In this document: positions 13,258 to 59,862 of the stretch, in pieces
Numbering within the stretch: the first letter of the stretch is position 1
Layout: every line of letters begins with the position of its first letter
Source of the DNA: Hypomesus transpacificus
Lineage: Eukaryota; Chordata; Actinopteri; Osmeriformes; Osmeridae
DNA length: 64,000 nucleotides
Direction of reading: 5' to 3'
NCBI RefSeq assembly: GCF_021917145.1
Contig: NW_025813860.1
Location: 1 to 64,000, forward strand
Translations under genes and position numbers: made by a program
Notes under the pieces: generated by a model
What the model was told of the DNA's origin: nothing
Database searches by the model: none
The model's input: the letters and a program-made list of their open reading frames with translations, nothing else

Positions 13258-16200
13258 ATGGTGATTGTGAATGAGCAGAATAGCATCAATAGCATGGCCA
13301 ATCATTTGAATCGACAGCTCGACAGCCCTAACCCCAACCAGCGAAGGCAGATGGCGTCGGAGGGGGCAGACAGAGCCATGGGCGCCATCATAGGAGCGGC
13401 GGTGGCGGACGCGGCAGGTAGGGTGACCTGATACAGTTAGTCCTCCTGCCGATCAGCGTGACTTCCTGGTGTTGATCGGAGAGGGGCTGCCGACTATCAG
13501 TCTGGGACATCTGCACGTCTGCTGCGGATGATAGAGGCTGCAGAAGGGCGTTACCCCCCTCTCTCTCTCCCTCCCTCCCTTTCTTTCTTTCCTCTCACTC
13601 TCTCTGTCTGTCTGTCTCCCCCTCTCTGCCACTCTTTCTCTTTTACCCTCTTCCTCTCTATCTCTCTCTCTTTATTTTTCTCTCTCCCCTTCATGGTCAT
13701 AAAAATAAGTTAGCAAAAGCAAGCCAGTTCATATCGCTCAAAACAGCTCTATAATTCAATTGTTCTGGTGGCTAGCCTCCTGCTTTTGATTTGTTTGCAC
13801 CGTAGACCAGATGTTACAGCAGAAAGTCCCTTAAAAAGGACAAGCAATAACTGTACATCGATATATTGGGTAAAAAATACTATACCGCTCTATGCCTTTG
13901 TTTTTGTGTGGCTAGCTTATTGCTCCTGTTGATGTATTGAGCTTAGCGGTGCCCCTCCAGAACGAAAAACAACAACAGCTCAAATGCATTGACAGACATG
14001 ACCTACTATTTGACGCCCGCGCACAGAAATTCAGATCAACAACTAGAGCAGCCATGATTCTGACTCAACCGTCAGCTGTGGCCTGGCCGCTGAGATCCTC
14101 GTCACCACACACTCTAGAACGTCAGCCCAGCTTTGGAACGGTTCTCTGGAGCGAGTCCAGGCTGATGTCACCCCTCTCACCCTGTCTCCTGGGTGAACTC
14201 CACCCGTCCAGCCCAGCCCATGCATTGGATCTACAACCCAGACCGGCTCCTCGAGGTTCTGGAAGATCTGGAGCCCAGCCCTGAGTTCCGTCCGCAGTCC
14301 GCCAACCCGTTCTACCGGCGGACCACGGGAGAGCAGACGTGCTATGGAGACCAGGCCTACGTTCTGCTGGAGTCCCTGAAGGAGTGTGGAGGTAGAACCT
14401 GGAGCCTGGTACCATACATATTCTTAACAATAATAATTTACAGAATAATAATCATGGATTTTAGTTTTTACTCACTCTTCTTGATTCTAACCAATGTCAA
14501 AAGAACATAAACAAAGGGAACCAAATTAAGTCATTCAACAACTTGCTGCACTCTTTCACATAAGTTCTTAGAGTGTCCAGACCTGGTCCTAATATATCTA
14601 GGGGATATGATCAATTCTTTAGGCCTGAATCGTGGTTGCATGGTTTTGCTTGTCCCTCAGGTTTGAACGTGGAAGACTTGACCAAGCGGACCTACAAGTT
14701 CTTTGGCAAAGGAACTGTGTACGACCTGCCTCTCAACGACCCCTACAAAAAGAAAGGAGGTCGGTTCTCATTGGCTGAAACCCTCTCTTTGACGTCACTG
14801 TGATTTGTTTCGGCCCAACATGCTGAAGATCATTGACCAGACGGGTGGTGTGGATCTGGTGTCAACAGAGCCCCTCTTGATAACATTTGCTCAGGTGGTT
14901 CAGGGAAAATCATGTTGTATAACCACAGACAAACTTCCTCCCAGTTAAGCATTAGAGCCACAATGGGACAGTCACTCTGAGTCGGCTCATTAAGCTGTTT
15001 ACAACTGCTGTTCATTTATACCATGTAGAGGCTGGTTTCTCCTGTCAAGGGAGAGAGAAATACAGATATTTCATATAATAATGTGAAATAAGATCAAAAT
15101 AATCAAAAATTATAATATTATTTAGATGTACAGTGCCCTCCAAAAGTATTGGAACAGTGAGGCGAATTCCTTTATTTTTGCTGTAGACTGAAAACATTTG
15201 GGCTTGACATCAAATAATGAACGTGAGACCAGAGATCAACGTTTCAGCTTTTATTTCCAGGTATTTACATCAGGATCTGATGCACAACTAAGAAAATATC
15301 ACATTTTGTTTGAATCCACCCATTTGTCATGTGATCAAAAGTATTGGAACCGATATACTTAAAACATATTTAAGTGAATAAGACTTAATATTTAGTTGCA
15401 AATCCTTTGCTTTCAATAACTGCAGCAAGTCTGTGACCCATTGACGTCACCAAACCTTTGCATTCTTCCTTTTTGATGCTTTCCCAGGCTTTCACTGCAG
15501 CCTCTTTCAGTTGTTGTTTGTTTTGTGGGGTTCCTCCCTTCAGTCTCCTCTTAAGCAGGTAAAATGCATGCTCTATAGGGTTTAAGTCTGGAGATTGACT
15601 TGGCCAGTCTAATACCTTCCATTTCTTGCCCCTGATGAACTCCTTTGTTGTTTTGGCAGTGTGTTTTGGGTCGTTATCTTGCTGCATGATGAAGGCTCTG
15701 CCAATCAGTTTGGTTGCATCTTTCCTTAAATTGGCAGACAAAATGTTTCTGTAGACTTCCGAGTTCATTTTGCTGCTGCCATCATGTGTTACATCCTCAA
15801 TGAAGATTAATGAGCCCGTCCCAGAAGAAGCCATGCAAGCCCAAGCCATGACATTACCTCCACCGTGTTTCACAGATGAGCTTGTGTGTTTGGGATCATG
15901 AGCAGTTCCTTTCTTTCTCCAAACTTTAGCCTTTCCATCACTTTGGTAAAAGTTAATCTTTGTCTCATCAGTCCATAAAACTTTGTCCCAGAATTTTTGA
16001 GGTTCATCTCTGTACTTTTTGGCAAATTCCAGCCTGGCCTTCCTATTCTTCTTGCTAATGAGTGGTTTGCATCTTCTGGTGTAGCCCTTGTACTTTTGTT
16101 CATGAAGTCTTCTGCGAACAGTAGATAGTGATACCTTCACTCCTGCCATCTGGAGGTTGTTGCTGATCTCACTAACAGTTGTTTTAGGGTCTTTCTTTAC

Positions 16201-19200
16201 AGCTCTCACAATGTTTCTGTCATCAACTGCTGATGTTTTCCTTGGTCTACCTGTTCGACGTCTGTTACTTAGTACACCAGTAGTTTTCTTCTTCTTCAGG
16301 ACATTCCAAATGGTTGTACTGGCTATGGCCAATGTTTCTGCAATGGCTCTGATTGATTTTCCATCTTCTCTAAGACTCACAATTGCTTGTTTTTCACCCA
16401 AAGACAGCGCTCTGGTTTTCATGTTGTTTTCACCTCTGAATACAGTCTGCATAGACAAAACCTATCTTACCCAATCTGAACCTGAGTGTAGACATTCAGT
16501 GGTATTTATTGATTGAATAATGTATGTAATAGGACACACCTGGGCAACAAAACACACCTGTCAGTCACATGTTCCAATACTTTTGCTCACGTGACAAATG
16601 GGTGGGTTCGAACAAAAAGGTGATATTTTCTAATTTGTGCATCAGAATCTGATGTAAATACCTGGAAATAAAAGCTGAAACGTTGATCTCTGGTTTCACA
16701 TTCATCGTTTGATGTCAAGCCCAAATGTTTTCAGTCTACAGCAAAAATAAAGGAATTGGCCTCACTGTTCCAATACTTTTGGAGGGCACTGTATGTGTGA
16801 GGGTTATGAATGGATGAAGGATTGATTGAATGATTGGTTGATTGGTTGATTGGTCGTTGTATTGTTTACGTCTGGCAGGTCCTAAAGCCGTCCTCCCCAT
16901 TGACGGGCCCTGGAGGAACGGAAGCCTCAAAGCCTTCATCCGAAACGTGGACGAGGGCCAGGATGAGACCGGTAACCGTGGCGACCCCACACGAGACATA
17001 AAACAGATGAGCCCTCCATAGTCATGAACAAAACAGCGATAACACTTCATAGAAGAAACAGCACAATCTGACGTCACACAATCGGACGTCACTGTGTCAC
17101 TGTGACAGAAGTTGGGGGGGAGTCAGAACGTCATGTTTGGGTTGCAGGGTGTGACGTGGACTGTCAGATGGATGGCGTCACCAAGCTGGCCCCCGTGGTT
17201 GCCATGTACGCTGGGAAGCCAGAAATGCTGGAGAAGGTGGAAGCGGCCGTTCGCGTCACCCAGAACTACGACCTGTGTGTTGCCGTGACGATGGCAGCTG
17301 CCAGGTAGAACAATCAGTCTAGTCTTGAGATGTCGCGCTCTCGCGGTTTGTCTTCCCGTTTCCAAAGAGACCGTTTGTCAGCGCGACACAAAACAGACTC
17401 CGGTTGCGACTTTTATTTGAGCAGGTTTCTGGAGTTCTTCATCCTGAATGGACCCAGTCCAAACGCCCTGGAGGCTGTTCTGGCCCAGCTGAAGGATCCA
17501 AACAGAAGGAACCCCCAGGATCTGGACAGCGCTGTGATTGGTAGGTCACTCCAACATAAATACCCCAAGATTTAGGCCAACCACTGTAGAAAAACACAAA
17601 GACTTGGGTTCCAGAACTACGATTAACGGCAGCATACAGGTCACACACAGACGAGAACAAGATGTGAAACAAACTCGTTTATAAGCGAACTAAAACGACT
17701 TTGTATATACGTGAACCATGTGGTAAGTGTTGAGATTGAGCGATCCTTTCTCCCTTCGCAGGCCATATCCTCCAGGTTAGGGACAACCTGAGCAGGCCTA
17801 TTCAAGAGCTCACTCCTGCAGTGTTCACAAACACATGAGGTGGGTCTGGTTGGTAGTGTGGCAGTGGGCTAGCAGCGGGGTCCAGTCTGTCCACTTGGCA
17901 CGGCCACATGCTCCCTGTCAGCATATCCGCTAGCTTCTCTCCAAAAGGTTGCCCCCCCTCCACCCCCGCCCTCTCTCTTCCTCTCTCTCCTTCCCTCCTC
18001 TCTGTCGCTCTCTCTCTCTCTTTCTGGCCTGCTCTCTCCTCTCTCTACCTCCCTTTATCTTTCTCCCTTTCTCTTTCGTCCCTCTCTTTGGTTCCCTTCC
18101 TCCCTTTCTCTCTCTCTCCTTTGATGGTACGACTAATGAATTCCTCCTCTTGTTTTCCCCTCTGCTTCAGAAGCAGGGGAGTGAAGGAGGATGTATTAAC
18201 ATTTGGGCTGAAGGGGTGTGGTGTGGAGGGTGCTTGAGTAGAGGGCCAACGGCCGCATGTCAATAGTCTGAGGTGACTGCCTTCCCCCTCCTTCTGTTCC
18301 TGGTGGAGCACTGGTGGGGCAGATGGGCAGATAACCTGGGCTGCCCCCTCAGACTGTGTGTCAAGCGTGGTGTTTTCGATAAACACGTCTGTTCTGTTCT
18401 GTTTCCTCAAAGAGGACAGAGCAGGATGGCTCTTTGCTCTATGTGGACATTCTCAAATGGAGGCATTCTGAGTTGTAACAAGTGTGCCACAGCTTGATTC
18501 ACGCCCTGGGCTATTTCTTGCTTGTCCGTTCTGTCTGTCTGTGTCCCCGGCCTTTCCTATGTAGCTCATCCTGTTACCATCATTAAAAAACAGAAATGCT
18601 TAAACACATACTGTATGTTTATATATAAATGTTCCTCACAGCTTCTCTCATTTCCCCCCCTCCCCTCCCCTTTTCTTTTTCTGTGTCTGTTCCTGGGTCC
18701 TTGGGCTGTGGTGTTCCTTGATTCTTGGTTCTTGGACGTTGGGGTTCTCGGTGTTCCTTGGTTCTCCGTGTTCCTTGGTTCTGGGGCGTGGTGTTCCAGC
18801 CGTGCCCGGGGCGTTCCAGGGGGCGCTCCACGCGGCCGTGACCCAGAGCCAGCTGGACGAGGCGGTCAGGACCACCATGCGCTGCGGAGGCTGCACCGCC
18901 AGCAGGGCCTCCTTCATCGGGGCCTGCCTGGGGGCCAAGGTCAAATCATTACTGATAAAAGTTATAGTATAGGCTACATAATCAAATAAATATGCATTGT
19001 TGTTTTTTTTATTATACATTAATGTAATATACTGCTTTTAGAGATTCATGAATGATTTACTCATTTAAACAATGTGAGGTATATTACTGTAATACACAGT
19101 CTGCTTCTACTCCAGGTTTTCCTTTCGTCTCAATGAACTTGTTTTTGTCGACGTGTGTTTGCAGGTGGGTCTTCAGGGAATCCCAGAGTCCTGGAAGAAC

Positions 19201-19266
19201 AGAACTCTGAGATACCCATTCCTGCTTGAACTAGCCAAGGACGTCGTTAGCTCACAGCTAGCCTAG
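13258..19266 (+). CDS. selenoj: Selenoprotein J (J1-crystallin / ADP-ribosylglycohydrolase-like fold), nine coding exons
   Basis: Exons: 13258-13417, 14212-14391, 14661-14759, 16879-16971, 17148-17304, 17425-17540, 17762-17839, 18800-18939, 19165-19266. All have GT/AG borders and the phases match throughout, giving 374 residues if the TGA at 17836 is read as selenocysteine (residue 294). The fold is that of ADP-ribosylglycohydrolases: GAIIGAAVADAA followed by QPMHW near residues 43-58, YGDQAYVLLES, APVVAMYAGKPEML, AVTMAAARFLEFF, and a C-terminal CGGCTASRASFIGAC. Enzymes of the superfamily carry a TDD-type motif and GGDTD metal ligands. Here these are YGDQ and GGCTA, as in jellyfish J1 crystallins, so a classical hydrolase activity is unlikely. 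SelJ is known mainly from fish, where a structural or lens role has been proposed. A Tc1 element sits in the intron before exon 4. The donor after exon 8 (AAG/GTCAAA) is weak. Confidence 0.9.
15131..15350. repeat. Left terminal inverted repeat of the Tc1 element
   Basis: 220-bp repeat matching the reverse complement of 16571-16791. The outer direct repeat is at about 15138-15153 and the inner one at about 15335-15350. Confidence 0.93.
15385..16458 (-). CDS. Tc1-type transposase, intact DD34E
   Basis: This cut-and-paste transposase acts on the flanking inverted repeats. The frame is open for 357 codons; Tc1 transposases are usually about 340, so the real start may be the Met at residue 13 (MKTRALSLGEK). 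Residues about 15-130 form the paired-like DNA-binding region: two helix-turn-helix units (SIRAIAETLAIASTTI and TVSEISNNLQMAG) with a GRPRK AT-hook-like linker between them. The catalytic triad is present: D in VLWTDETK, D in QQDNDPKHTAK, and E in SPDLNPIEH, with 34 residues between the second D and the E. No stop or frameshift is seen, so it may encode an active enzyme. It is antisense to selenoprotein J. A promoter is not obvious. Confidence 0.95.
   Translation of the reverse strand: MSMQTVFRGENNMKTRALSLGEKQAIVSLREDGKSIRAIAETLAIASTTIWNVLKKKKTTGVLSNRRRTGRPRKTSAVDDRNIVRAVKKDPKTTVSEISNNLQMAGVKVSLSTVRRRLHEQKYKGYTRRCKPLISKKNRKARLEFAKKYRDEPQKFWDKVLWTDETKINFYQSDGKAKVWRKKGTAHDPKHTSSSVKHGGGNVMAWACMASSGTGSLIFIEDVTHDGSSKMNSEVYRNILSANLRKDATKLIGRAFIMQQDNDPKHTAKTTKEFIRGKKWKVLDWPSQSPDLNPIEHAFYLLKRRLKGGTPQNKQQLKEAAVKAWESIKKEECKGLVTSMGHRLAAVIESKGFATKY
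16571..16791. repeat. Right terminal inverted repeat of the Tc1 element
   Basis: 221-bp inverted copy of 15131-15350, ending GGAGGGCACTG next to the TA duplication. The inner and outer CCAATACTTTTG motifs are at about 16574 and 16771. Confidence 0.93.
17836..17838 (+). other. selenoj: In-frame TGA read as selenocysteine (Sec294)
   Basis: The codon lies four bases before the exon end (TGA G/GTGGGT). Upstream the frame reads LTPAVFTNT. After splicing to 18800 it continues AVPGAFQGALH in the same phase and stays open for 80 more residues to a normal TAG stop. The exon would not end in a matching phase-1 donor if the TGA were a real terminator. Together with the SECIS-like element in the 3' UTR this supports recoding. 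Confidence 0.85.
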
Positions 19267-19361: not shown

Positions 19362-19440
19362 TCTGGCAAAGCAGTTAATGAAAGTTTCATTCTAAAGCAA
19401 CATGTAAGGAATGGAACATGAGCCTTCTGGTTTTGTCAGA
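19362..19440 (+). promoter_or_regulatory. selenoj: SECIS element in the selenoprotein J 3' UTR
   Basis: It starts 96 bases after the stop codon. Lower helix: 19362-19372 (TCTGGCAAAGC) pairs with 19430-19440 over 11 bp, including G-U pairs. An internal loop follows, then the SECIS core: ATGA at 19378-19381 faces ATGA at 19418-19421, which can form the tandem G.A pairs. The upper helix is GTTTCATTC (19384-19392) with GAATGGAAC (19409-19417), 9 of 9 paired. The apical loop carries AAA at 19394-19396, 12 bases after the ATGA, the spacing usual for SECIS elements. I folded it by eye. Confidence 0.85.
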
Positions 19441-24676: not shown

Positions 24677-27600
24677 CTATCTCTTGCCCCTCTTGTTCCC
24701 CACGGGGGGCTTCTTGAGCTGCAGCAGGGGTCCTCCGGTGCCGAAGCCGGCGGTGGGGGGGTTGGACACCCCGAAGGTGAGCCCTGCAGACGCGGTGATG
24801 CCCGGGTTACTGAAGTTGAAACCTGTGCTGCTGCTGCTGCCAAACCCTGGAGGAGAGGAGAGGAAAAAAGAGAAAGTGAAGGGAGAGAAGGTAGGAGGAG
24901 AGAGGAGGTAGGAGAAAGTCAAAAGAAAGGAGAGGCGGAGAAAAGAGGAGAGAAGGAGAAAGAGGGGAGAGAAGAGATGAGGGAAAAAGGAGCGATGGAA
25001 AAGAGGAGAGGGGGCGAGGAGGAAAGAGAGAGGGAGACAGGGGGGGAGGGGGGCAACATTATTAATATTCATAAACAATGTACAGGTTACCTGCATGAAT
25101 GCTCCTGGTGTGAGCTTTCCCCATACTGTGCGTCGGTGTGCGTGTGTGTGTCTTAGTGTGCGCGTGTGCTAGTGTGTGTGTACCTGCACTCAGGCTGCCT
25201 CCGGAGGGCTTACTGGTGGAGGAGAAGCCGAATGAGGCGCCCCCGGTCGCCACCCCCCCAAACCCTGGAGCACCACCACCAAAGGCTGCAGGAGGGAGAG
25301 AGAGCGAGCTTAGCCACGGTACACACACACACACACCTTCCTCTCACACACCCAATAAGACCGAAAACAGACACACGTCACCATCTAGCATTGGCCAGAA
25401 AAGGCCAAAGCCAGCGCCACACATGGTTAGAGCTCAACGTGCAAGGGTGAGAGGCAGCAGAAGAGACCAATCGGAGAGCAGAGCGAGAGAGCAGGGCCCA
25501 ATGGCAAAAGGGAGCTGTAGAGGGGACCCGCCCCCGACCACACCTGACAGGCTGCTTCCCTCTCACACCCTGATACACTGCAAACCTTTAAAGTGGCACG
25601 GTGCTCGTACACACACACACGCACACAACTTCTATTCACTACCACAGAACAGCTAAGATACGAGGGAGGCGAGAAGAGATAGAGAAAGGGAGAGAAAGGA
25701 AAACGAAGGGGAGAGAGCCAGAGAACGAGCGAAAGAAAGAGCGAGCGAGAAAGACGCGGAGGGGTTAGTGTGTGGGAGGGGCGAGGAGGACAGCAGGAGG
25801 GAGAGCTGGTACCTCCGAGGCCTGACGAACCCAAGCTAGGGCCCACTCCCCAGGCTAAGGGGTTTCCATAGCCAGCCCCCAGGGGCACCTGAGACCCTGA
25901 GACAGAGAGAGCACATACTGGTCACTCCCCTGGCCCTGGCCCTGACCCCACCCTGGTCAGATCCTTGTGTGTGTGTGTGTGTGTGTGAGACAGTGAAAGA
26001 GTGACAGTGTGAAACAGAGAGTGAGTGAGGTGGTGAATGAGTCAGTGTGAATGAGTGTAACTGAATGAGAGACTAAGTGCGTCCGTGAGTGAGAATGTGC
26101 GTATAGACTCGTGTAGAAATCAAGCCCCAGGTCCCAGGGACTGCTGCTACTGAACCCAGCCGCTCCCTCAGCTGGCAGCACAAGGGCCTGTTCACAAGGA
26201 CAAACATCCGGCAAGCACCCGTCTGGCAACAGAACGCCAGTTTGGGGCTGAATCCTAGAGAAAAGACAGGTGTCTCCATCCCTCCTCCCTACCAGCCAAC
26301 CACCAACCTCCTGATGTCATCGGCCCCTTAACGGGGCGTGGGTCAAGCCGACACCAAGAAGCGTTAGCGCTTCCGCTCTCAACCCTCCGTCTTGTGTTCC
26401 TGCGTGCGGTCAGACCGAGGGCACAGGGTTCGCTCGTTTGGGGAATTGTCAACATGCAGGTTGGGCAGGGGGCTAGTTTGAACCGCCGTCAATCGTTCTC
26501 CGATTGAGCCGTTCATGAATAAAACAAAGACAAAGGTCTCTCATTTTAAAAACGGATTTATTGTCAATTCAATGCAATTCCACTTACATTTTTAAAAAAA
26601 ACAGAGATAAACAGTTTAGCACAGAACTGATTGTTAATTGCTAGTCGCTATTGAATTTGACAAGTTAAAAAAATTCAATTAAATAAAACAAAAAATTGAA
26701 AACGCCAAGGTTTTTGAGAGTGAAAGAACCAGCGCGTGCCCCGAGAGCTGGGGCCGACTGTCGTCATTCATGTGGACCTACATCTACTTTCAAAAGGCAC
26801 ACTCTATCATCATATTAAATATATATTATATATATGCATCGAACAGGCGTTGGCTATGTGCGATTAAAAACACTTTCCAAACGAAAACACACACTGGGGG
26901 GTTTGGATCATCTCGAGCGGCCCCCGACTTCATCCCCCTGCATCTACTGATCCAGACGGAGCCAGCTAGCGCAGACTGAGGACAACACTGGGGGGGGGGA
27001 TAGGGCCCACAAAGGAGCCTGCGTCAGTCTGTGTGCTCTAGCCTGGTCATGGAGCCGTTTGTCTGACCCCGCCCTCGCTCAGACGGCGGGACCGTGATTG
27101 GCTGGGGGGTTCTGCGGTGTCATGAGAGCACGCCGTGACGACCCAGCTTAAACTGGCTCGAGGCGTTCAAAAAGCTCCCCCCCCCCCTGCAGCCAGACAG
27201 ACCGGTGAACCTCATGTGAACACATGCTGCTGGCATCCCCTCTGCTTGCTGGTCAAACTGATATTTCACTGCAAGCGTCTTCAAGCACTGATTTACCTGT
27301 ATGGTCGGATTCATGGGCCAACAGGAGTCAACCAAGGCCTACGTTCTGATTCACTGAGTCAAACCAGAGCCAAACCAGGCCCACGTTCTGATTCCCACAG
27401 TCAAACCAGAGCCAAACCAGGCCTACGTTCTGATTCACTGAGTCAAACCAGAGCCAAACCAGGCCCACGTTCTGATTCCCACAGTCAAACCAGAGCCAAA
27501 CTAGGCCTACATTCCGACTCATTGAGTCAAACAGGTGCAAAATAACCCAATTGCCAGCTAGGAGCCACCAGCCAACCGTTCAATAGAACCTTAGGCTCCG

Positions 27601-30600
27601 GAACTGCATGGGATTTCCAAACTCATCGTGGTGTTGGGGAATCCTCGAGCGTGAATCAACAGGAGTTTGACCAAACGAACGTACACTGCTCACGAACGGA
27701 GAAGCAAATCTCAAAATCTCCAATACAACTGAGGCACGTGGGGGAACCAGCTAGCTGAAGTCACGCGGGCCAGACAGTAGCCGGAACCTGGCAGTGACGG
27801 GGAGAGAAGGACGAGCAGCATTCGGTTCATCTCAAAGAATACATAATGGCCGCCTCTTTGGACAGAGACTTGGTTTTAGTGTTTTGGCACAAAAGGAGTT
27901 GTCTGCCGTCTGAAGGCCAGGCCACATGCAGCAGGCAGAGAAGGAACACCACAGCACTTCTGCTCACTGACTCAAAAATGAGTTTCACAGACTTGGGGGG
28001 GGGGGGGGAGGGGGGGTCTACTGACAAGGACACTCGCCACTTCTCCTGAAAGCCTTCCTGCCAACCTGAGTGTGAGACTCCACTCGTCTCCTCCAGGGAA
28101 TCTCCAGCTCTGCGACCACTCCAGGGTTCACGTGTGACGAACCCTGCCGGAGGCGAGAGCGACCGCTGGAAGGCAGACCCGGGAACGTCTCAAACCCTTT
28201 CGTCCATAGAGGAAGTCTCCGTTGCTTCAGTCCTGAACTAGTGTTAAACTAGAGATATCCTATCTGGGTTCAATGTAAACAACACTACGAGTTCCCGTGC
28301 AATGCATGGTGACCAATTCAGCTTGGGTGAACAGTCAGGTCATGACACGTGTGTGTATTTTGACTTCATGTAGAAATCCATCACGCACGGAACACACGCT
28401 AAACACGTGGAGCTCCGGACGCGTGGTTGGCATGGCAAACAGCCCGCGGTGAGCTCGAGAGCGGCGTGGAATATGACGGCGTTATTGTTTTGACGACCCC
28501 GCGCACAACGGACAATACTGAAACGGCGACGCGGATCCGCTCCGGTTCCTTCCTGTTTGGAGACCCTGTGTCATCAGCAGCCCCACGCAGCGACTCTGAG
28601 AGGAGACGGGCTCGCGGAGGCAGGTCTGCCCGCGATTAAGGAGTCCTGTCACGCCCGAATCCCATCTCATTTGCACTTTCCGTCATAAATACTGAGATTG
28701 TGTGCGCGTGTGTCTATGTGGTGTGTGTGTTTTGTAAGTGTAGCCTACATCCTGTACAGACTGCCTTCATATGGCAACATTTGGTCTAAGTCATTAACAC
28801 ACACACACTCCTATAATTGGCAACAAAACCCATAAGAATCTAATAAATACTCTTTCGGAAACTAAATATAAATCACATAAGTCAACATTCAAGAGCGACG
28901 ATTATCTCCACTTCAAACCAGGGCGCCCTTCGCTGAATACGCAGGACCCCTTCTAAGGCTTCACCTGATCAAACGGAGAGCCCAGAGCATCAGACGCACA
29001 GAGGCTCGCTGATGCGTGCCTCTGGTCGAAGCTCACCTCTCCAGTGAAAACAGCCTCCTTGTTTCTGTTAGCTCGTACCCCTCTCTCACCCCACTAGGGG
29101 CGACCACGCGCTTTTACAGGGCGAGAGGCAGAGGATTTTGTAAACGAGACCCAAATCTCTCTCTCTTCTTTTTTTTTTTTTTTTACAGGCATTGTCTACA
29201 GCCAATCTGACCTGGGTCCTAGGCCCCTGAGGCGTGGGGGTTGGAGACCCTGTGTGGTTCCAGAGTGTTAGAGGTTACTATGATGCTTTCCTCTCACCTT
29301 GATCTCTCTCTCTCTTCAACTTCTCACGCCAAAAAACTAACAAAGCAGGATTTGGCACTCGCAACGTTTTTGTTTTGTTTTCCTTTTATTCTTTTTTTTC
29401 CTGATTCTCCTCTCTCTCTCTCTCTCTCATCCTCTCTCTCTCTCTCTCTTCATCCTCACTTGCCTCCTCGCTTTGACAAGGTCAGAATGTCAGGTTGGTG
29501 GAGGAGTGGAGTAGGGGGGAGGAGGAGGAGGAGGGAGGGAGGGGGAGGAGGTCAAAGGTCAAGTGGAGGGGTGTTCTAGAACTTGAAGGCGGTCAGACCT
29601 GGAGCGGGCTGCTGCTGCTGGCTCAGCGTGGCCGCCATGGCGACCGCCGCCGCGTTGGGGACGCTGCTGAAGGGGGCGGGGCCGGTGGTGAGGCGGTGGG
29701 AGCTCTGCCACTTCCTGCTGGCCTGGCGCTTGGACTCGAACACATCGGTGGAGTCCTCCAGGAAGGCCCGGCGGTACGCCAGGTACTGATGCTTCAGGAT
29801 CTGACCACAGAAGAAGAGCAGGGGAGGAAATCAGCGAGACAGAGACACCAGGGGGAGGGTTAGAGACACCAGGGGGAGGGCTAGAGACACCAGTGGTAAG
29901 GCTAGAGACACCAGGGGGAGGGCTAGAGACACCAGGGGGAGGGCTAAAGACACCAGGGGGAGGGATTGAGACACCAGGGGGAGGGTTGGAGACACCAGGG
30001 GGAGGGCTAGAGACACCAGGGGGAGGGTTAGAGACACCAGGGGGAGGGCTAGAGACACCAGGGGGAGGGCTAGAGACACCAGGGGGAGGGTTAGAGACAC
30101 CAGGGGGAGGGTTAGAGACACCAGGGGGAGGGCTAAAGACACCAGGGGGAGGGATTGAGACACCAGGGGGAGGGCTAGAGACACCAGGGGGAGGGCTAGA
30201 GACACCAGAGGGAGGGCTAGAGACACCAGGGGAAGGGCTAGAGACACCAGGGGGAGGGTTAGAGACTCACCTTTACATTCTCGTGTACAGACTGCAGCTG
30301 GGCAGCCAAGGCCACGAACGTCTGGTAGAGCTTCTGCATGGCCAGGGACAAGTCTGGAAACACAAACCACAAATGATGTTCCACACACCTTGCTGTGGTG
30401 TGTGTGTGTGTGTGTGTGTGTGTGCAGGGTTGTGAATGAGGGCGTGTGACTGTGAGGATGTGTGTGTGTGTGAGTGTGTGTGTGTGTGGCGTCTCACCCT
30501 GGGGGGTGATGTGTGCTCCGCTGCCCTGTGTCGTGAGGTGGTTCTCCAACTCCTCAATCTGTTGTCTGTACTGCTGCAGCTGGACCTCAAACTGCTCCAC

Positions 30601-32710
30601 CAGGCCCCGGAAATAACTACACACACACACACACACACACACACGGGAGAGAGGAGAGATGAGTTGTCTGTCCTGGCTGTCCTGGCCTGGTATAGTGCTG
30701 GAGACAGGAGGAAGACGGAGAGACTGCGCAGAGGGGCGGCAGTGTCCCCTGCCCCTGCAGCCACGCGGCCCACTCACTCCGAAGGAGCCGTGTTCTCATG
30801 CTGGAGCCCAGGGGGGGTCTTCTGGGTCCGGAGAGGGATGTCAGCGTTCTTCAGCTCCTGTGAGACGGGCCGAGTCAGAGAGAGAGTAGGAAAGAGAGAG
30901 ATAGTCAGAGAGAGTCAGAGAAAGATATATATGGGGGTTCAAATATCCCGTGTGTGTGATCCAGTGAGGTCGTGTGTTGCAGTGTGTGCGGGTGTGTTGC
31001 AGCGTGCCTGTGTGAGAGATCCAGTGTGTGTGTGTGTGTGTGTGTGTGTACCTGTGCCGTCTCCATCTTCAGCTTGTCGATGGCAAGGGCGTTCCTCTGC
31101 AGGCCGCTGGTGCTGAGCGACAGCTGCTTCTTCAGGCTCCTGATGTCGTCCTGGACCTTGGCCATGGCCTTGGACGACATCCTGCTGATGTCCTCCTGCA
31201 CCTGCTTCTGCTCCTTCACAAACTTCCTGCACACACACACACACACACACACACGGCTTACACACAGATACCCCTACATACATCTTCAAACATCCCTAGA
31301 TACACACACCTACCTACAAACACCCCTAGATATACACACACACACTTAAAAACACCTCTGAGTTCCCCCCCTCACACACATTGCACGAGTCGCGCAAAAA
31401 CAAAAAGAGCCGAGCACGTGGGAACCTACTGGAAGTTATCGACGTCCTGGCAGATGACCGGCGGCAGGTTTTCGTCTTTCAGCGCTTTGCTGTCCCTGAG
31501 TGAGGAAAGAGGCGGAGGGAGTCACTCACACACACACAGACTCACAGACCAGGTAACCCTGCAGCAGAGGAGGGAGAGTGGGGGAGGGGCTATCAGGACT
31601 CACTCGGGACGGGCCCCGGACAGCTTGTCGCTCTTCTTCTCCGACAACGTGCTGAAGTCAACTCCGCCCAGCCCGAGGCTGGGGGCCGAGGTGGCGACCA
31701 GGGAGCCCAGCGTCAAGCCCCCTGCCCCGGGGAAAGCCTGCCCCAGGCCGCTGGCCATCGTGCTGGGGAACAGACTGGAGCCCAGCGTCAGGCCCATGGA
31801 CACGGGCGCCGCGCTCGAAACCGCTCCCCCGAGGCTGAGGCCGAAGCCGGCGTTGGCCACCTGCGGGGCGGCGGAGGTCTGGACCGAGCCCAGCGTCAGG
31901 CCTCCCCCCATGGGCGCCGTGGACGAGGCGGTGAGGGAGAAGGGGGTGGCCGAGGCGGAGGGCTTGTTAAAGGCCAGGCTGAAGCCCGTGGAGGCGGCCG
32001 TGGAGGAGGGGATGCCTGCAGACAAACGGGACACGCTCGCGGTAAAAAACCCTGACCAAGGACGCAGACGTGTGAAAATTGGCCGTGTTACTGGACTACT
32101 TTACAACACGTCACTCACTTAATGAAAGGCCGGTTGCAGGCGCGGTTGCACCTGTGTGTCGACAAGGTTTGTGTTTGAGAGGAAATCCATTGAAATACAT
32201 ATGCCGCGTTTAAATACGACAATATGCAATGTACATGGAATGATTGAGATGTTAGTGGCACGGTTTGTGAAGATTGGCAATTAGTACGTTACTATACCTG
32301 CCACTGGTGTGTTGAAGGAGAAGCCCCCGGTAGCCGGTTTTTGAGCGAATAGACCGCCCCCCAGCCCCCCCATAGCAGCGGTGGTGGTTGTAGCAGCGGA
32401 AACCGGGGCAGCGGCACCGAGTGCAGTCCCCAAGGTGAATCCCCCCGTGCCAGCGGCAGCAGGGGTACTACAGAGAGAGGAGGGGGTTAAATATACCGAC
32501 TATACCGACAATTCCATAGTCAAATTAGCAACAGATTCACAGACATTAGGAAGTCAATGATATATCTAACTGCGCATGGCTACGAGACGATCCAGCTAGC
32601 GACGAACGTAAGCCAATTCGTGTGTACCTTGCAGCTGCTCCGAACGAGAATCCCCCGCCAGTAATGGTGGACCCGAGGGTCCCAGTATTTCCAAAGTTGA
32701 ATCCCGACAT
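24677..32710 (-). CDS. nup58: Nucleoporin Nup58 (p58/p45), twelve coding exons, long form
   Basis: Part of the Nup62-Nup54-Nup58 complex that lines the nuclear pore central channel and binds importins through FG repeats. Exons (minus strand): 32710-32628, 32467-32298, 32015-31604, 31495-31430, 31226-31052, 30857-30778, 30616-30498, 30353-30271, 29800-29599, 25896-25813, 25285-25184, 24846-24677. All phases agree, giving 581 residues (human Nup58 is about 600). Residues 1-221 are an FG/SLxFG-type region starting MSGFNFGNTG. Residues about 222-440 are the coiled-coil core (KFVKEQKQVQEDISRM, YFRGLVEQFEVQLQQYRQQ, ILKHQYLAYRRAFLE). Residues 464-581 are a second FG region ending LQLKKPPVGNKRGKR, the characteristic Nup58 tail. 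An alternative short end is listed separately. The long introns around exon 9 hold minisatellites. Confidence 0.95.
26557..26562 (-). terminator. nup58: Candidate polyadenylation signal of the short nup58 transcript
   Basis: AATAAA on the minus strand about 3 kb beyond the short-form stop codon (29576) and upstream of the long-form exon 10. This would give the short form a 3' UTR of about 3 kb that includes the 42-bp minisatellite. Confidence 0.35.
27336..27540. repeat. 42-bp minisatellite, five copies in an alternating (84-bp) pattern
   Basis: Units of the form 'GTTCTGATTC(ACTG or CCAC)AGTCAAACCAGAGCCAAACCAGGCC'. Types with ...CACTGAGTCA and ...CCCACAGTCA alternate, so the higher-order period is 84 bp. 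It lies in the nup58 intron or alternative 3' UTR. The open frames across it are periodic by-products. Confidence 0.88.
29576..29800 (-). CDS. nup58: Nup58 exon 9 read through to its own stop: short (p45-like) C-terminus
   Basis: Exon 9 can splice at 29599 (CCAG/GTCTGA) into the FG-rich long tail. If that donor is not used, the frame ends seven codons later as GLTAFKF followed by TAG (29576-29578), giving a 470-residue protein without the C-terminal FG region. Mammalian Nup58 is known to make p58 and p45 forms from one gene by alternative splicing, and this arrangement fits that scheme. The donor is not a strong consensus, which would favour regulated use. Confidence 0.65.
   Translation of the reverse strand: MLKHQYLAYRRAFLEDSTDVFESKRQASRKWQSSHRLTTGPAPFSSVPNAAAVAMAATLSQQQQPAPGLTAFKF
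29842..30266. repeat. 21-bp minisatellite (AGAGACACCAGGGGGAGGGCT), about 20 copies
   Basis: Near-perfect 21-bp units fill most of the nup58 intron between exons 8 and 9 and stop a few bases before the exon 8 donor. Because 21 is a multiple of three, long frames stay open on both strands. A variant pair (AAAGACACC then a unit starting ATTGAGACACC) recurs nine units apart (near 29945 and 30134), pointing to a 189-bp block duplication. Confidence 0.95.
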
Positions 32711-37438: not shown

Positions 37439-38496
37439 ATGTTCAACATCATGGTGACCTTAAGGCTGAAAATTAAACATGGAAATATCTACCATTCAGC
37501 CAGTCTTGCATCAACCAGTCTTCCAAACATGCAGTTTTGGCCAATTCTGGGACTCTTGGTTAGTCATCCTATGAAGGAACCTGTCATCATTGGACTGTAT
37601 TGTGGTGCCAAAAAACCTTCCAGTGCAGTGGAATTCATGCAAAAATTTGTCCAGGAGTTGCAAAATCTAGAAAATGGTTTTGTTTTTAAAGGCAAAAATA
37701 TAACTCTAAAGTTACACACTGTTATCTGTCACAGTCACATAATGGTTATCAGGGCTGTGATATGTGACCACATATTGAAGTTTCAAGATTCCTATATGGT
37801 TAATGTATGCACCTTCCTGCCAAAGTCAATTCCTTGTCTGTGCAAACATTCATGGGGAATAAAATCCCTTCTGATTCTGATTATTCTGATTCTGAAATGT
37901 GCACAGCGTGGACAACACATAAACAGGAAAATGAGCTACCCTTTGACTGAGTACAGACTAAGAACGAACGAATCATTTGCACAGAGAATAGATGAATTTG
38001 CACTGCAGCAAGTTCTCAGAAGGCTGTCTGAGCAAGAGAACACCATCCGTCGCCTGACACCAAACAATTTACATTTAGTCATTTAGCAGACGCTCTTATC
38101 CAGAGCGACTTACAGTAAGTACAGGGACATTCCCCCGAGGCAAGCAGGGTGAAGTGCCTTGCCCAAGGACACAACGTCATTTGACACGGCCGTGAATCGA
38201 ACTGGCGACCTTCAGATTACTAGCCCGATTCCCTAACCGCTCAGCCACCTGACTCCCTAATTTCCCCCCAAAATACAGTTTTGTTGGACCACTTCTTGGT
38301 ACAAATGTACTTTAAGTTAAGGGACAGTACCAGGAAATGCATACTGAACAGTGGACACTTAGAGTGTCAACAGGAAATAGTGTCTTCATCATTGGAAAGG
38401 ATGTTTGCAGCATGCAACATTGTTGAATGCTGTGTACAGAGCCTTCACAAAGAGATCGTTTTTTTTATGAATACCCATTCAGTACATATTTCCTGA
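37439..38496 (+). pseudogene. Decayed transposon-associated ORF, interrupted by a SINE
   Basis: A frame of 215 codons includes NMQFWPILGLLVSHP, VIIGLYCGAKKPSS, and EFMQKFVQELQNLENGF. Further along is KMSYPLTEYRLRTNESF. This combination recurs, as I recall, in multi-copy fish and invertebrate proteins tied to DNA transposons. The region normally followed by a VICDTPAR-like motif is altered (VICHSHI), and no long 3' part is present. A SINE on the other strand cuts in at 38068, after which a short related-looking frame (38281-38496, LERMFAACNIVECC) follows. I regard it as a dead mobile-element gene; its superfamily is not certain. Confidence 0.45.
38068..38257 (-). mobile_element. tRNA-derived SINE
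   Basis: Read on the minus strand it begins with a tRNA-like head: GTGGCTGAGCGGTTAG (A box) and GGTCGCCAGTTCGATTC (B box). A body follows with CCTTGGGCAAGGCACTTCAC and a tail GCTCTGGATAAGAGCGTCTG, then CTAAATGACTAAATGTAAA. This tail is very common in fish interspersed repeats. A body fragment of the same family lies at 51556-51620 and a tail fragment near 157-190. Confidence 0.85.
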
Positions 38497-38899: not shown

Positions 38900-40640
38900 T
38901 CCCTGTGAGGCAAGGAACGCTGGGAAATAACTGGCGCAAAGCGCGAAGCATAGAGGCGCGCCGCGAAGCTGTATTGACAGTCGTCGAACACGCACTTGTC
39001 CGTTTTTGTTGTCGGGGTGTTAAAAGGTAAATGTACACATTTTGTCGATTGGTAGCATAAAATATAATGTGTAAATATTCATTTTATTGGATGCCTATAA
39101 ATCCCGAAAATGTTGTAGACTGATGTTTGTGCAACACAACACAGCAACACATCCCGCAACTTTCTGCATCGAGTGTGAAGAAGTGGTCGAAGAGATAGTG
39201 GAGGAAACAAACCGCTATGCCTCAGTGCAGCAGGAGATGATGCCATCCGGAGTGAAAGGAAAGCTGGCCAAATGGGTGCGGACAACAGTTAATGAAATGT
39301 ATTCATTCTTGGTCGCTGTCTGCCTGATGGGAATTGTGAAAAAGTTTTCCCTCCGAGAATACTGGATCACAGATCCCATCCTCCTTACCCCCATCTTCAC
39401 AACACTCTTCTCCCAGGACCGCTTCCTGCTTCTCCTCCGTTGCTTGCACTTCGTCGACAGTGCAAGGGGTAATGTAAATGATCCCCACAAGATAAGAAAT
39501 GTGTTAACTGGTCTCACCACCTCATTCAGACTGTCTTTGTACCATACAGGTACCTTTGTGTCGATGAATCCCTGATGAAGTGGAAGGGTAGGCTGGCATT
39601 TCAGTATACCAACACAAAGGCATAGAGCTGGTGTCAAATTCTTTGTCCTTTGTGATGTATTGACCGGTTATGTGGAGGACTTGATCATTTACACTGGATC
39701 ACGTTCAAGGACTCTGCATATCTGGGTCAGTCGTGATGACCTTACTTGCACCCTACTTCAAAAAGGGCCACATCCTGTACTTAGACAACTGGTACAGCAG
39801 CCCGACACTGTTCCAGCACCTCTTCTACCGTGGAACCAGAGGCCTGTGGGACCGTTCAGGCAAATCAGAAGGGGATGCCAGCCGTCACTCCTAAAATGAA
39901 AAAGGGCGAAGTGGAGTTTCAACAAAATGGCAGTCAATTGGCCGTTAAGTGGCATGACAAACGATGTCATGCGCACCACTGTTCATTCTTCAACAATATC
40001 AGCCACGGCAAGGATTGATCATGCCACCGGGGGGAAACTGAAGCCAGCTTGTGTTCTCAAATACAACAAGAAGATGGAGGCTGTGGACAAGGCAGATATG
40101 GTGAACAGCTTTGTCGAATGCGCCAGGAAGACTACCAAGTGGTAAAAGAAAGTATTCTTTCACTTGGTAGTCACTGCTGTTCTCAATGGCCACATCGTCC
40201 ACTGTCTGGTGAGATAAATGCACAATACATTTCAAATGATATAATTTCCTTACAAAGCTTTTAAAATATCTTTGTTGCTGTGACTACTCAAATTCCTACT
40301 CATTTACTCCATTCTGAATAGGGAGAGTCATCACTTACCAGGAGTACAGACTGAACTTGATGAGACAGCTGCTCGAGGTGCATCATACACCTCGACGCCC
40401 ATCCACCGGTGGCCGTCCCACAGTAGACCATCCTCTGCTGTGGACTGCCAGGCACGTTCCCTCTGAGGTCCCTCAGACTGCTAACCAAGGAAGCAGGACC
40501 AGGCGGCAGTGCAAGGTGTGCATGTTTACCTCGTGTTGGAGAAAGGACAGAAGAGTCCCAAAGTTCATGTGTGCGGCATGCAACGTTGCCTTGTGTGCTG
40601 CCCCATGCTTTGAGGAGTATCATACCCTCAAACATCATTA
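38900..40640 (+). pseudogene. Broken piggyBac-type transposase
   Basis: Pieces of a PGBD4-like transposase appear in order but in different frames. They are MYSFLVAVCLMGIVKKFSLR and REYWITDPILLTPIF at 39297-39400, CVDESLMKWKGRLAF near 39556-39602 (first catalytic D), and LDNWYSSPTLFQHL near 39780-39822 (second catalytic D). Next are the regions matching RTTVHSS and ACVLKYNKKMEAVDKADM at 39972-40104. A C-terminal cysteine-rich domain CKVCMF ... CAACNVALC ... CFEEYHTLKHH lies at 40510-40640. At least three frameshifts and several stops separate them, so it is inactive. The ends and the TTAA duplication were not located. Confidence 0.85.
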
Positions 40641-42829: not shown

Positions 42830-45661
42830 ATGGCGTCCAGCTCGTCTCTCCCAGAGGAGGATCTCTCCTGTCCTGTGTGCTGTGACATCTTTAAAGATCC
42901 TGTCTTCCTGTCATGTAGCCACAGCTTCTGTAAAGCCTGTCTGCAGGAATACTGGAAGGAAAAGAAAGAAAGAGATTGTCCAGTTTGCAGAAGAAAATCA
43001 TCAAAGGATTCCCTTCCCCTCAACCTGGCTCTGAAGAACCTGTGTGAGTCCTTCTTACAGGAGAGACGTCAGAGAGCTTCAGCAGGGTCTGAGGTGCTCT
43101 GCAGTCTGCACAGTGAGAAACTCAAGCTCTACTGTCTGGATGATAAACAGCCAGTGTGTGTGGTGTGTCAGACCTCCAAAAAACACAAAAACCGTGACTG
43201 CTGCCCCATCGATGAAGCTGCACAGGATCACAAGGTATGATTGAGTAGGTATGACAGAGTAGACACAGATTTGTTATTTAGGCCTAATTAATATGGGTAA
43301 ACGTATTGAGTAGACACACCTGTATGGACATCCCACTCTAAATCCATGGACATTAAGCTTCAGTTAGCTCCACCTTTGCAGCTCTGACAGCTGCCACTCT
43401 TCTGGGAAGGCCGTCCACAAGATGTTGGAGTGTGTGGAGAAATAATGGGCACTGATGTTGGATGATTAGACTTGGCTTGCAGATGGTTAGAATTTATCTC
43501 AAATATGTGTCATAGGTACTATACTATAGGTCAAGAATCAGTGCAGGCCAGTCTAGGTTTTCCACATCAAACTCAACAAAACATTTCTGTATGGACCTCA
43601 CTTTCTACATTGAGCAGGTCTAATCAACCAACATCAGTTCCCATTCCCTGTAATGCTCTTGTGGCTGACTGGAAGTAAATACTGCATCAATGTTCCATAG
43701 TTGTCCATAAAAGGCATTCTTAGAAATGTGAAGGCAGTTATAGAAACACAGCGTGAACCAAATTTATGTACATTTCTTGATGTTAGAATGAGAGCTGTCC
43801 ATATACTGAGCAGTTTCCACATACTATTGGCAATATAATGTTTGTTAATATTAGAATGTTCAATATTTATATATTTTTGAAGTGTTGATGATTTATTGTT
43901 TCTCTGCTTCGATACTCATTTATTCTATTGAGTTTTATTAGAGAGACGTCTCAGATCCAGCTGGTCAAATGAGAGGATGAACAACTTTTACTCCTGACAT
44001 GTTTTGTTTTAACCCAGGAGGAACTCCAGCCTGCTCTGAAGTCCTTACAGGATCAGCTACAGGTCTTTAATGAAGTTAAACAAACCTGTCATCAAACAGC
44101 AAATCACATTAAGGTAAAAACAAATTATCAATAAAATAATATGAAACCATTTTTACATTGAAAACTCTGGTCAGCTAAACCTCTGTATGAACCTCCATGT
44201 CTACAGGTCCAGACCCAGCACACAGAGAGGCAGATTAAGGAGGAGTTTAAGAAGCTTCACCAGTTTCTACAAGAGGAAGAGGAGGCCAGGATAGCTGCAC
44301 TGAGGAAGGAGGAGAAGCAGAAAAGTCAAATGATGAAGAAGAAGATTAAGGGGTTGAGCAGAGAGATATCAACACTTTCACACACAATCACAGCCATAGA
44401 GGAGGAGCTGAGAGCTGAAGACATCTCATTCCTGCAGGTCAGGACTGAGCTCTCTAAGTTCATATGGAATGGCTTGCTGGGTGTGTTTATGAGTGTCTAA
44501 CTTCATATTCTGCATCTCCACAGAACTACAAGGACACAGTGAATAGGTAAGTGACCTGCCTCCTGTCTCTCTCTTCTCTGTGGCTGTGAACCCGACCCCA
44601 CAGCAGCTCTGACTCCAGAATGTTCTTCCAGAGCCCAGTCCACTCTGCCGGATCCACAGCTGGTCTCAGGAGCGCTAATAGACGTGGCCAAACACCTGGG
44701 CAACCTGACCTTCAGAGTCTGGGAGAAGATGCAGGTCATTGTCACACACAGTGAGTTTTTGATAATGTTATCATTTTAATATTTCATATTGTACTTACAT
44801 TATCCTGCTGATTACTGATCACAATCTTTCTTCTATGATCATGATCATACCCATTCATAACATGACACCACAGTACAGGCTACAAACAGAACTTGACCAT
44901 TGTTACTTAATGTACTGTATTACTCTACCACATATCACACCAATACCAGCCTGTTATGTTGAATACAGCATGATCAATGCATGTAGAATAACAATGACAT
45001 CCACATACATGATATGTACAGTCATCATTACTGGGTTTGTCCAAGTGTCAACTCCTGGTGGGTGAGGGTGTAAACATCAAACACTGCATCAACACAAACC
45101 TGATGTCTCTCCTCAGCTCCTGTGACTCTGGACCCCAACACTGCCGACCCACACCTCATCCTGTCTGAAGATCTGACCAGTGTGAGACTCAGTCAGGAGA
45201 GACAGCAGCTTCCTGACAACCCAGAGAGGTTTGATTGTGATCTGTTGATCCTGGGCTCTGAGGGCTTTAACTCAGGGACACACAGCTGGGATGTTGAGGT
45301 TGGAGACAGTACAGAGTGGTACTTGGGTTTGGAACCAGAGTCTATCCAGAGGAAGGGGGTCAAAATGGGTGGACGCAGGGGAATCAAGTGCTTTCATGGT
45401 TCATATAGCGCAGGATCCTCAGGATCTCTATCCTTTGCTCTCATAGTGAGACAGAAACCCCAGAGGATCAGACTGCAGCTGGACTGGGACAGAGGAATGC
45501 TGTCATTCTCTGACCCTGATAGAAACACACACCTGTACACATTCACACACATATTCCGGAGAGAGAGACTTTTACCATTCATTTGGAATGGGAGCAGTCT
45601 CCACCCTCTGAGGATCTTACCAGTGAAGGCCTCTGTAACAGTAGAACAGCACAGTCATTAG
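42830..45661 (+). CDS. TRIM E3 ubiquitin ligase (RING, B-box 2, coiled coil, PRY-SPRY), intact, six exons
   Basis: Exons: 42830-43234, 44018-44113, 44207-44437, 44524-44546, 44632-44750, 45117-45661. Phases agree, giving 472 residues. The architecture resembles TRIM35 / nuclear factor 7-like fish TRIMs, which are cytosolic ubiquitin ligases often tied to antiviral signalling. RING: C14, C17, C29, H31, C34, C37, C50, C53, all present. B-box 2: C91, H94, C102, D105, C110, C113, H119, but the usual final His is Arg122 (codon CGT). Coiled coil: about 136-250 ([31 protein letters not shown]). PRY-SPRY: 292-472, starting [16 protein letters not shown], with [15 protein letters not shown] and [15 protein letters not shown] second, broken copy follows 1.5 kb downstream, so this is a tandem array. 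The exact orthologue is uncertain in this expanded family. Confidence 0.9.
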
Positions 45662-58714: not shown

Positions 58715-59862
58715 ATGAAAATGAATGGCAGGACATTTCACAGTAAACAGATAAATTGTATTATCCTCTTGCTCCTGTGAGTATTAAATACTGTAAATGT
58801 GATTCATTTGGATTTCTTAACCTCTAAGTCACGTTTTTTCACTCACTTTCTGGCACAAAAATGACACCAACTCCATCCCTTATCTTTTTGTCTAGGACAT
58901 TCTATCATGGATGCTATGGTACAGAAAAATACTTCAATGACCAAGAAACACTTGAAAAATCAGAAGAAAACCTAGAATGGATGACAAAAATCAGGGAAGA
59001 CATTGAACTTTCTAAACTGTTTATACCTGGCACACATGATTCTTTAGCTCTCTATGGTGGGTTTGCTGTGGAGTGCCAATCATGGAACCTGGAAACTCAG
59101 CTTAGGGCAGGTGTTCGGTATTTTGATCTCAGGGTGTGGAATATCCACCAGAGTCCTGAAACTATGATTCTTACTCACGGTATAGTCCGACAAAAGAAAT
59201 TGTTGTCTTCAGTATTCCAGGACATGGTAAAATTTTTAGAAGAACATAAATATGAAACTATTTTGATTAGAATAAAGCCTACAGTGTATCATAAGAAGGA
59301 TGTAAAGGAAAACACACTGACCTTGCTCAAAACATTAAAGTATGAAAAGTATATATACCCCAGTTTGAAGGATCAAAGCCAGGCTGGATCTCCAAAAATG
59401 ATGGAGGTGAGAGGCAAAATTGTATTTGTAATGTTAAAAGATGCATTTGATTTTGGAATACCTTTTTCCACCACACACGAGAAAGGGGGACACAAAGTCG
59501 GTAACATTCAAGATAAATTGAATTTGGTCTTACGTTACATAAACACCAAAATGAACTTTAATTGCGAAACAGCAGACACTGACGAAAAGGAACTGGATCT
59601 GATACTTACCTACTCCAGTGGAACTGGCATGCCGAAAGGGAAGTTTTGGCTCACCCCAAAGGCTATTGCTGAGAACATCAATGAAAAACTGGCTGAGAAC
59701 CTAAAAGAGTTGTCAACTACACCTGCCCTTCATGGCATCCTTGCCATGGATTTTCCTGGGCCAGATCTCATCAAAATTGTAATAGATTTCAATAAGTCCC
59801 ATCAAGAAAACAATCCGGGTACTAGCAATGGTAAAAGGTCACTGAAAAGAGGGCAAGCCTAG
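58715..59862 (+). CDS. Secreted phosphatidylinositol-specific phospholipase C, bacterial-type, two exons
   Basis: Cleaves phosphatidylinositol (and possibly GPI anchors) to diacylglycerol and cyclic inositol phosphate. Exon 1 (58715-58776) encodes a signal peptide: basic start MKMNGRTFHSK, then a hydrophobic core CIILLLLTF. Its phase-2 donor CT/GTGAGT joins the acceptor TTTTTGTCTAG at 58895; exon 2 is 58896-59862. The product is 342 residues, similar in size to Bacillus PI-PLC (about 300 mature). Active-site features of that family are all visible: FIPGTHDS (H68, D69), AGVRYFDLRVW (D98, R100), ILTHG (H115), EVRGKIVFVML, and LAMDFPGPD with an Asp near the C-terminus. There are no PH, EF-hand or C2 domains, so it is unlike animal PLC-beta/gamma/delta. 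Fish genes called 1-phosphatidylinositol phosphodiesterase-like are its likely relatives. It differs from its neighbours in having a single large coding exon. Confidence 0.85.

Follow-up and report, generated by a model that had tools for sequence, protein, structure and literature searches.

An in-frame TGA lies at the end of a coding exon in the 64,000-nucleotide (nt) stretch of Hypomesus transpacificus DNA analysed here (C192:1-64000, from a 437 Mb genome; hereafter the window), raising the question of whether this codon terminates a protein or is read as selenocysteine (Sec) within selenoprotein J (SelJ). Comparison with homologues and a paralogue indicates that the gene almost certainly encodes a 343-residue SelJ, the SelJ-a copy, with the TGA at 17836-17838 decoded as Sec. 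The gene spans 13258-19266 on the + strand and comprises nine coding exons and eight introns, all GT...AG, arranged as follows.

13351..13417, + strand: exon 1, from the conserved ATG, with homologues beginning at the same Met; donor CAG^GTAGGG
14212..14391, + strand: exon 2, phase 1-1; encodes QTCYGDQ (Cys at the first metal-site Asp of ADP-ribosylhydrolases)
14661..14759, + strand: exon 3, phase 1-1
16879..16971, + strand: exon 4, phase 1-1
17148..17304, + strand: exon 5, phase 1-2
17425..17540, + strand: exon 6, phase 2-1
17762..17839, + strand: exon 7, 78 nt, phase 1-1, containing the proposed Sec codon; its skipping preserves the frame
17836..17838, + strand: TGA, very probably read as selenocysteine, by sequence comparison with homologues and the paralogue
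18800..18939, + strand: exon 8, encoding RCGGCTASR
19165..19266, + strand: exon 9, with the natural stop TAG at 19264-19266

At E<=0.001 a search with the protein gave 237 rows, and the results given here rest on the best 120 of these. The top row (E 1.6e-171) shows 76% identity across 90% of the query, with 58-77% identity to the listed rows covering at least 90% of it. Row names include 'selenoprotein J' and 'crystallin J1A/B/C', and Pfam ADP_ribosyl_GH (PF03747; E 2.1e-41) is the sole family at E<=0.001. Homology to SelJ is nearly full length, and a tree puts the window protein among SelJ rows. SelJ was reportedly described in 2005 by Castellano et al., who are also said to have recognized its relationship to jellyfish J1 crystallins, and the locus is another gene of this already known family. 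No invertebrate or cnidarian homologue occurs among the best 120 of the 237 rows or in two regional searches (24 and 58 rows), whose rows are fish wherever named, and none of the bacterial and archaeal genome contigs scanned yielded a relative. The initial annotation of this DNA had called SelJ fish-restricted, which does not hold, as there are reports of the family from amphioxus (PMC3473315, Table 1) and algae (PMC7539508).

The TGA is the last full codon of exon 7, followed by a single G and the donor GTGGGT (GAG^GTGGGT), so that the exon model reproduces exactly the earlier placement of an in-frame TGA near the end of exon 17762-17839 ahead of a phase-1 donor. The next exon, said to open at 18800 in the matching phase and to stay open to a natural stop with the motif CGGCTASR, behaves as described. 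Its acceptor is preceded by TTCCAG, and the frame past the TGA reads an Ala codon split across the junction (G, then CC) and VPGAFQ...RCGGCTASR, remains open to 18939, is spliced to 19165 and ends at the TAG. When the conceptual protein is aligned with fish SelJ, residues 264-343 are 59-74% identical to six compared rows (70-71 aligned residues), and the upstream part 67-85%. Relative to the paralogue described below, nonsynonymous (dN) and synonymous (dS) divergence after the Sec codon are 0.35 and 1.83 (NG86, 80 codons), indicating that the post-TGA stretch evolves as coding sequence; before the Sec codon dN is 0.22 and dS is not estimable. The identity to the six rows and these divergence values together argue that the downstream frame is not a chance one.

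The residue number is Sec263 rather than the Sec294 given initially. Starting at 13258, where an in-frame ATG precedes the conserved one, puts the TGA at codon 294 of 374; starting at the ATG at 13351 puts it at codon 263 of 343. The upstream ATG would lengthen the exon 1 product by 31 residues without counterpart in homologues, which begin at the Met encoded by 13351, and 28 of the 42 listed rows that end before the Sec codon are 261 or 262 residues long.

A selenocysteine insertion sequence (SECIS) in the 3' untranslated region (UTR) defines selenoprotein genes generally, and in eukaryotes SBP2 on the SECIS brings eEFSec and Sec-tRNA to the UGA. One lies past the stop codon of the window gene, a feature absent from the initial annotation.

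19362..19440, + strand: SECIS element, core AUGA at 19378, apical AAA, distal AUGAG; from our own pattern and fold

The strict pattern applied to the window ([AG]TGA, a helix of 8-13 bp tolerating one mismatch, an apical AA and a distal TGA) has a single match over both strands of the 64 kb, at 19378-19421, sitting 110 nt past the stop and 354 nt past the TGA. UGA-to-SECIS distances of 207-5207 nt are given for mammals (PMC3316567). In shuffles of the 1,234-nt post-stop stretch, any match arose in 136/2000 and a score of at least 8 in 5/2000, the real score being 9. The fold of the 79-nt element, at -24.2 kcal/mol (z -3.14), has a basal helix, then an internal loop, and above it an upper helix of 10 bp. 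A Sec-redefinition stem-loop was also sought downstream in the spliced mRNA, in five segments of 50-110 nt whose starts lie 3-9 nt from the T of the TGA, and nothing beyond composition emerged (z -0.57 to +1.51). On the proposed mechanism, SECIS-bound SBP2 would recruit eEFSec and Sec-tRNA, the UGA would thereby be decoded as Sec, and ribosomes failing there would terminate. In zebrafish sbp2-/- larvae, every detectable selenoprotein except Txnrd1 is reported to have fallen, Selenoj included, and Selenoj and Selenop were the highest among the selenoproteins measured in that study (PMC8881744).

The homologues are informative at the Sec column. Among the 120 listed rows, 42 end at the residue just before the Sec codon, 14 carry Cys in its place, 55 include the downstream exon via another join and nine do otherwise. 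In a second count, 19 rows match precisely what skipping exon 7 would produce, so that other joins account for 36 of the 55. Sixteen rows added by the regional searches (P0121-P0136) lie outside these counts and bring the total to 136; among the sixteen, P0132 (Coregonus) is a further exact exon 7 skip. Cys occupies the column in 15/136 rows, 13 of them named salmonids and two without a name; Cys-bearing rows are thus salmonid wherever named. Twenty-two of the listed 120 rows (a list transcribed by hand) carry an unexplained source label, 'lgn'. They look like spliced transcripts because they span exons 1-7 without introns; 18 end at the Sec codon, four have Cys and none skips exon 7. Four additional 'lgn' rows from one of the regional searches are frames running through introns. 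Rows P0128, P0130 and P0131 show W then G at the Sec position and look like genomic frames in which TGA was read as Trp; W-G is what TGA-GGT would give, which, judged from the protein letters, suggests the same exon end.

Separately, P0093 and P0115 are frame-shifted models ending ...QTHEVC..., seemingly out of frame across the Sec codon, as ACACATGAGGTG would give; these ends fit a conserved TGA-G^GT in two further fishes.

A second SelJ gene is present in the genome.

C10:7599391-7602157: second SelJ gene, matching the window gene in exon layout and TGA

This paralogue has nine coding exons with phases as in the window gene, including a 78-nt exon 7 and a 140-nt exon 8, and its exon 7 ends in TGA, G and then GTAAGA. 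Its 342 residues are identical to the window copy at 185/261 aligned positions before Sec and 49/80 after. The paralogue's 3' UTR contains AUGA...CUAAA...AUGAG, 94 nt past the stop and 337 nt past the TGA (fold z -2.58). The minimum-energy fold lacks a canonical SECIS core, though AUGA, CUAAA and AUGAG are kept, and this SECIS-like element offers weaker support. Taken together, the 3' UTR SECIS of the window gene, the salmonid Cys at the same column, the homologue frames ending there and the paralogue TGA support the original proposal that the TGA would encode Sec in SelJ.

Several results weigh against this conclusion. Rfam SECIS_1 matches 19370-19431 at 17.7 bits (E 7.3), under the curated gathering score of 35; the SECIS_1 match is absent from the listing of the whole-window Rfam runs, and the C10 element has no Rfam listing at E<=10. 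The available structure model is that of a salmonid Cys homologue, with a predicted local distance difference test (pLDDT) score below 50 at residues 255-265, Sec position included.

The skip-product rows could mean that most transcripts omit exon 7 and encode a 317-residue protein without Sec. The exon has the size for it, with 78 nt in phase 1-1 and the frame preserved, and three of the 19 matching rows (P0002, P0006, P0010) are labelled 'isoform X2'. A survey finds RefSeq annotation no poorer for fish-specific selenoprotein families than for mammalian ones (PMC12822975), and the label might reflect RNA evidence. The same source, however, describes Sec-exon skipping as a known annotation error affecting about 22% of Ensembl selenoprotein transcripts, with less than 1% of SELENOJ well annotated in Ensembl (PMC12822975). 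With no skip product among the 22 'lgn' rows, and with the 26 residues present in both copies and including the end of a predicted helix (229-245), habitual skipping is very unlikely. A related idea is that exon 7 has been kept in both copies as a selenium- or tissue-dependent cassette, inclusion giving the Sec protein from an mRNA prone to nonsense-mediated decay (NMD) and skipping an NMD-immune, in-frame, Sec-free protein; we regard this as an unlikely, speculative possibility.

A true stop would yield a 262-residue protein, with the downstream exons as relics, and the rows that end exactly at the codon, 18 of the 22 'lgn' rows among them, speak for it. Homologues ending at this point had been named as a refutation of Sec, but they are none: 42/120 listed rows do end there, because translation programs stop at a TGA, whereas the Cys homologues run on past the codon. 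The downstream exons are constrained, as the divergence and identity values above indicate, a SECIS is present and the paralogue shares the TGA, making termination as the normal outcome extremely improbable. That the gene is a pseudogene or an assembly error that happens to contain a TGA has nothing in its favour beyond general possibility and borders on negligible, given nine exons open except for the TGA, GT-AG junctions, deviation at just 3/100 highly conserved columns and the same-codon TGA in the paralogue.

With Sec decoding retained as the preferred explanation, the position of the UGA bears on mRNA stability. The initial annotation raised NMD under low selenium because of the adjacent splice junction. 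The rule requires a junction at least 50-55 nt beyond the stop (PMC4911915); the exon 7/8 junction lies 1 nt from the TGA, well short of this, and the exon 8/9 junction lies 141 nt downstream of the UGA in both copies, where it is the last junction. The suspicion thus fails for the first junction and stands for the second: the exon 7/8 junction would play no part, and the exon 8/9 junction could trigger decay. Given the 141 nt that separate the UGA from the last exon junction beyond it, SelJ mRNA should be a candidate for NMD at low selenium, bearing in mind that the 50-55 nt rule is reported not to predict the selenium response fully (PMC4911915). With their equal distances, the two paralogues form a natural pair for studying selenium control of SelJ mRNA decay.

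The age of the duplication was assessed from a tree of 60 rows, in which the window and C10 copies were joined by 58 rows picked by hand out of the 120 listed. Two starred sets hold the two copies. One, of 23 rows, unites the window copy, at most 84% identical to any tree row, with copies from percomorphs, cod, trout and mudminnow/blackfish; the other, of 22 rows, unites the C10 copy with those of salmon, pike and percomorphs and with a second trout copy. The three rows from non-teleosts, namely gar, bowfin and sturgeon, cluster together. From the placement of the two copies in separate sets, we infer that the duplication is older than at least the split between the salmonid line and percomorphs. 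It looks older than the 2012 survey would imply, which reports SelJ2 as a duplication in medaka and stickleback (PMC3316567).

Examining the fold suggests how SelJ may differ from its enzymatic relatives. A profile built from 37 longer rows matched seven solved structures, and one from an alignment rich in truncated rows matched none at E<=0.01. The fold of the Cys homologue matches the ADP-ribosylglycohydrolase family (PF03747). Compared with the ADP-ribosylhydrolases ARH3, DraG and MJ1187, the Mg-site motifs TDDT and GGDTDS of MJ1187 correspond to TCYG and GGCTAS in the window protein. In the profile alignment to MJ1187, Cys-Tyr stands opposite Asp-Asp and Cys/Ala opposite two Asp; the first stretch (Cys-Tyr) is a weak 0-bit domain, ungapped there. 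The MJ1187 Asp positions aligned here presumably bind Mg, and ARH3 D77 and D314 mutants are named in PDB titles. The Mg-binding Asp pairs of active ADP-ribosylglycohydrolases are missing from the two motifs of the window protein. SelJ may therefore have an ADP-ribosylhydrolase fold without the magnesium site, a less certain conclusion than the Sec assignment. With two metal-ligand Asp positions occupied by Cys and the Sec in a loop before the next helix, a thiol/selenol-based or structural role could be envisaged, in place of ADP-ribose hydrolysis. The active-site geometry is unproven, since the model is of the Cys homologue and pLDDT is low around the Sec position. Should the Asp-to-Cys changes and the Sec form one site, SelJ would represent an enzyme fold put to use in thiol/selenol chemistry, a point relevant to the choice between a structural crystallin and a redox protein.

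Other features were recognized in the window. Intron 3 of SelJ contains a Tc1-like transposon at 15130-16792; the 220 nt compared at each of its ends form inverted repeats of 93% identity.

15385-16458, - strand: transposase frame of 357 aa within the Tc1-like transposon; Pfam HTH_Tnp_Tc3_2 and DDE_3
24677-32034, - strand: nucleoporin gene, three frames matching Pfam Nucleoporin_FG2 (PF15967); we take it to be NUP58/NUPL1-like
38073-38126, - strand: UnaL2 LINE (long interspersed nuclear element) 3' element
39087-39575, + strand: transposase piece, Pfam DDE_Tnp_1_7
42830-45661, + strand: TRIM-like gene, with a RING and B-box frame at 42830 and PRY-SPRY at 45122
58861-59862, + strand: single frame of 333 aa with a PI-PLC X domain

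The gene is one of a family whose members are cut short or spliced around by ordinary annotation, and the case shows how homologues that appear to end at a codon can mislead for selenoproteins. Among the closest known systems, the trypanosome mitoribosome assembly factor mt-SAF23 comes from a mitoribosome assembly particle (PDB title), and its aligned part shows no Sec. Salmonid selenoprotein Jb, or 'crystallin J1A' (P0024, P0030), is of the same family and the same length (343 aa), but Cys replaces Sec and it clusters with the C10 copy. The SelJ/SELENOJ of ray-finned fish is alike in sequence, Sec position, flanking motif and 3' UTR SECIS, with no fundamental difference from the window gene, which is one of two copies.
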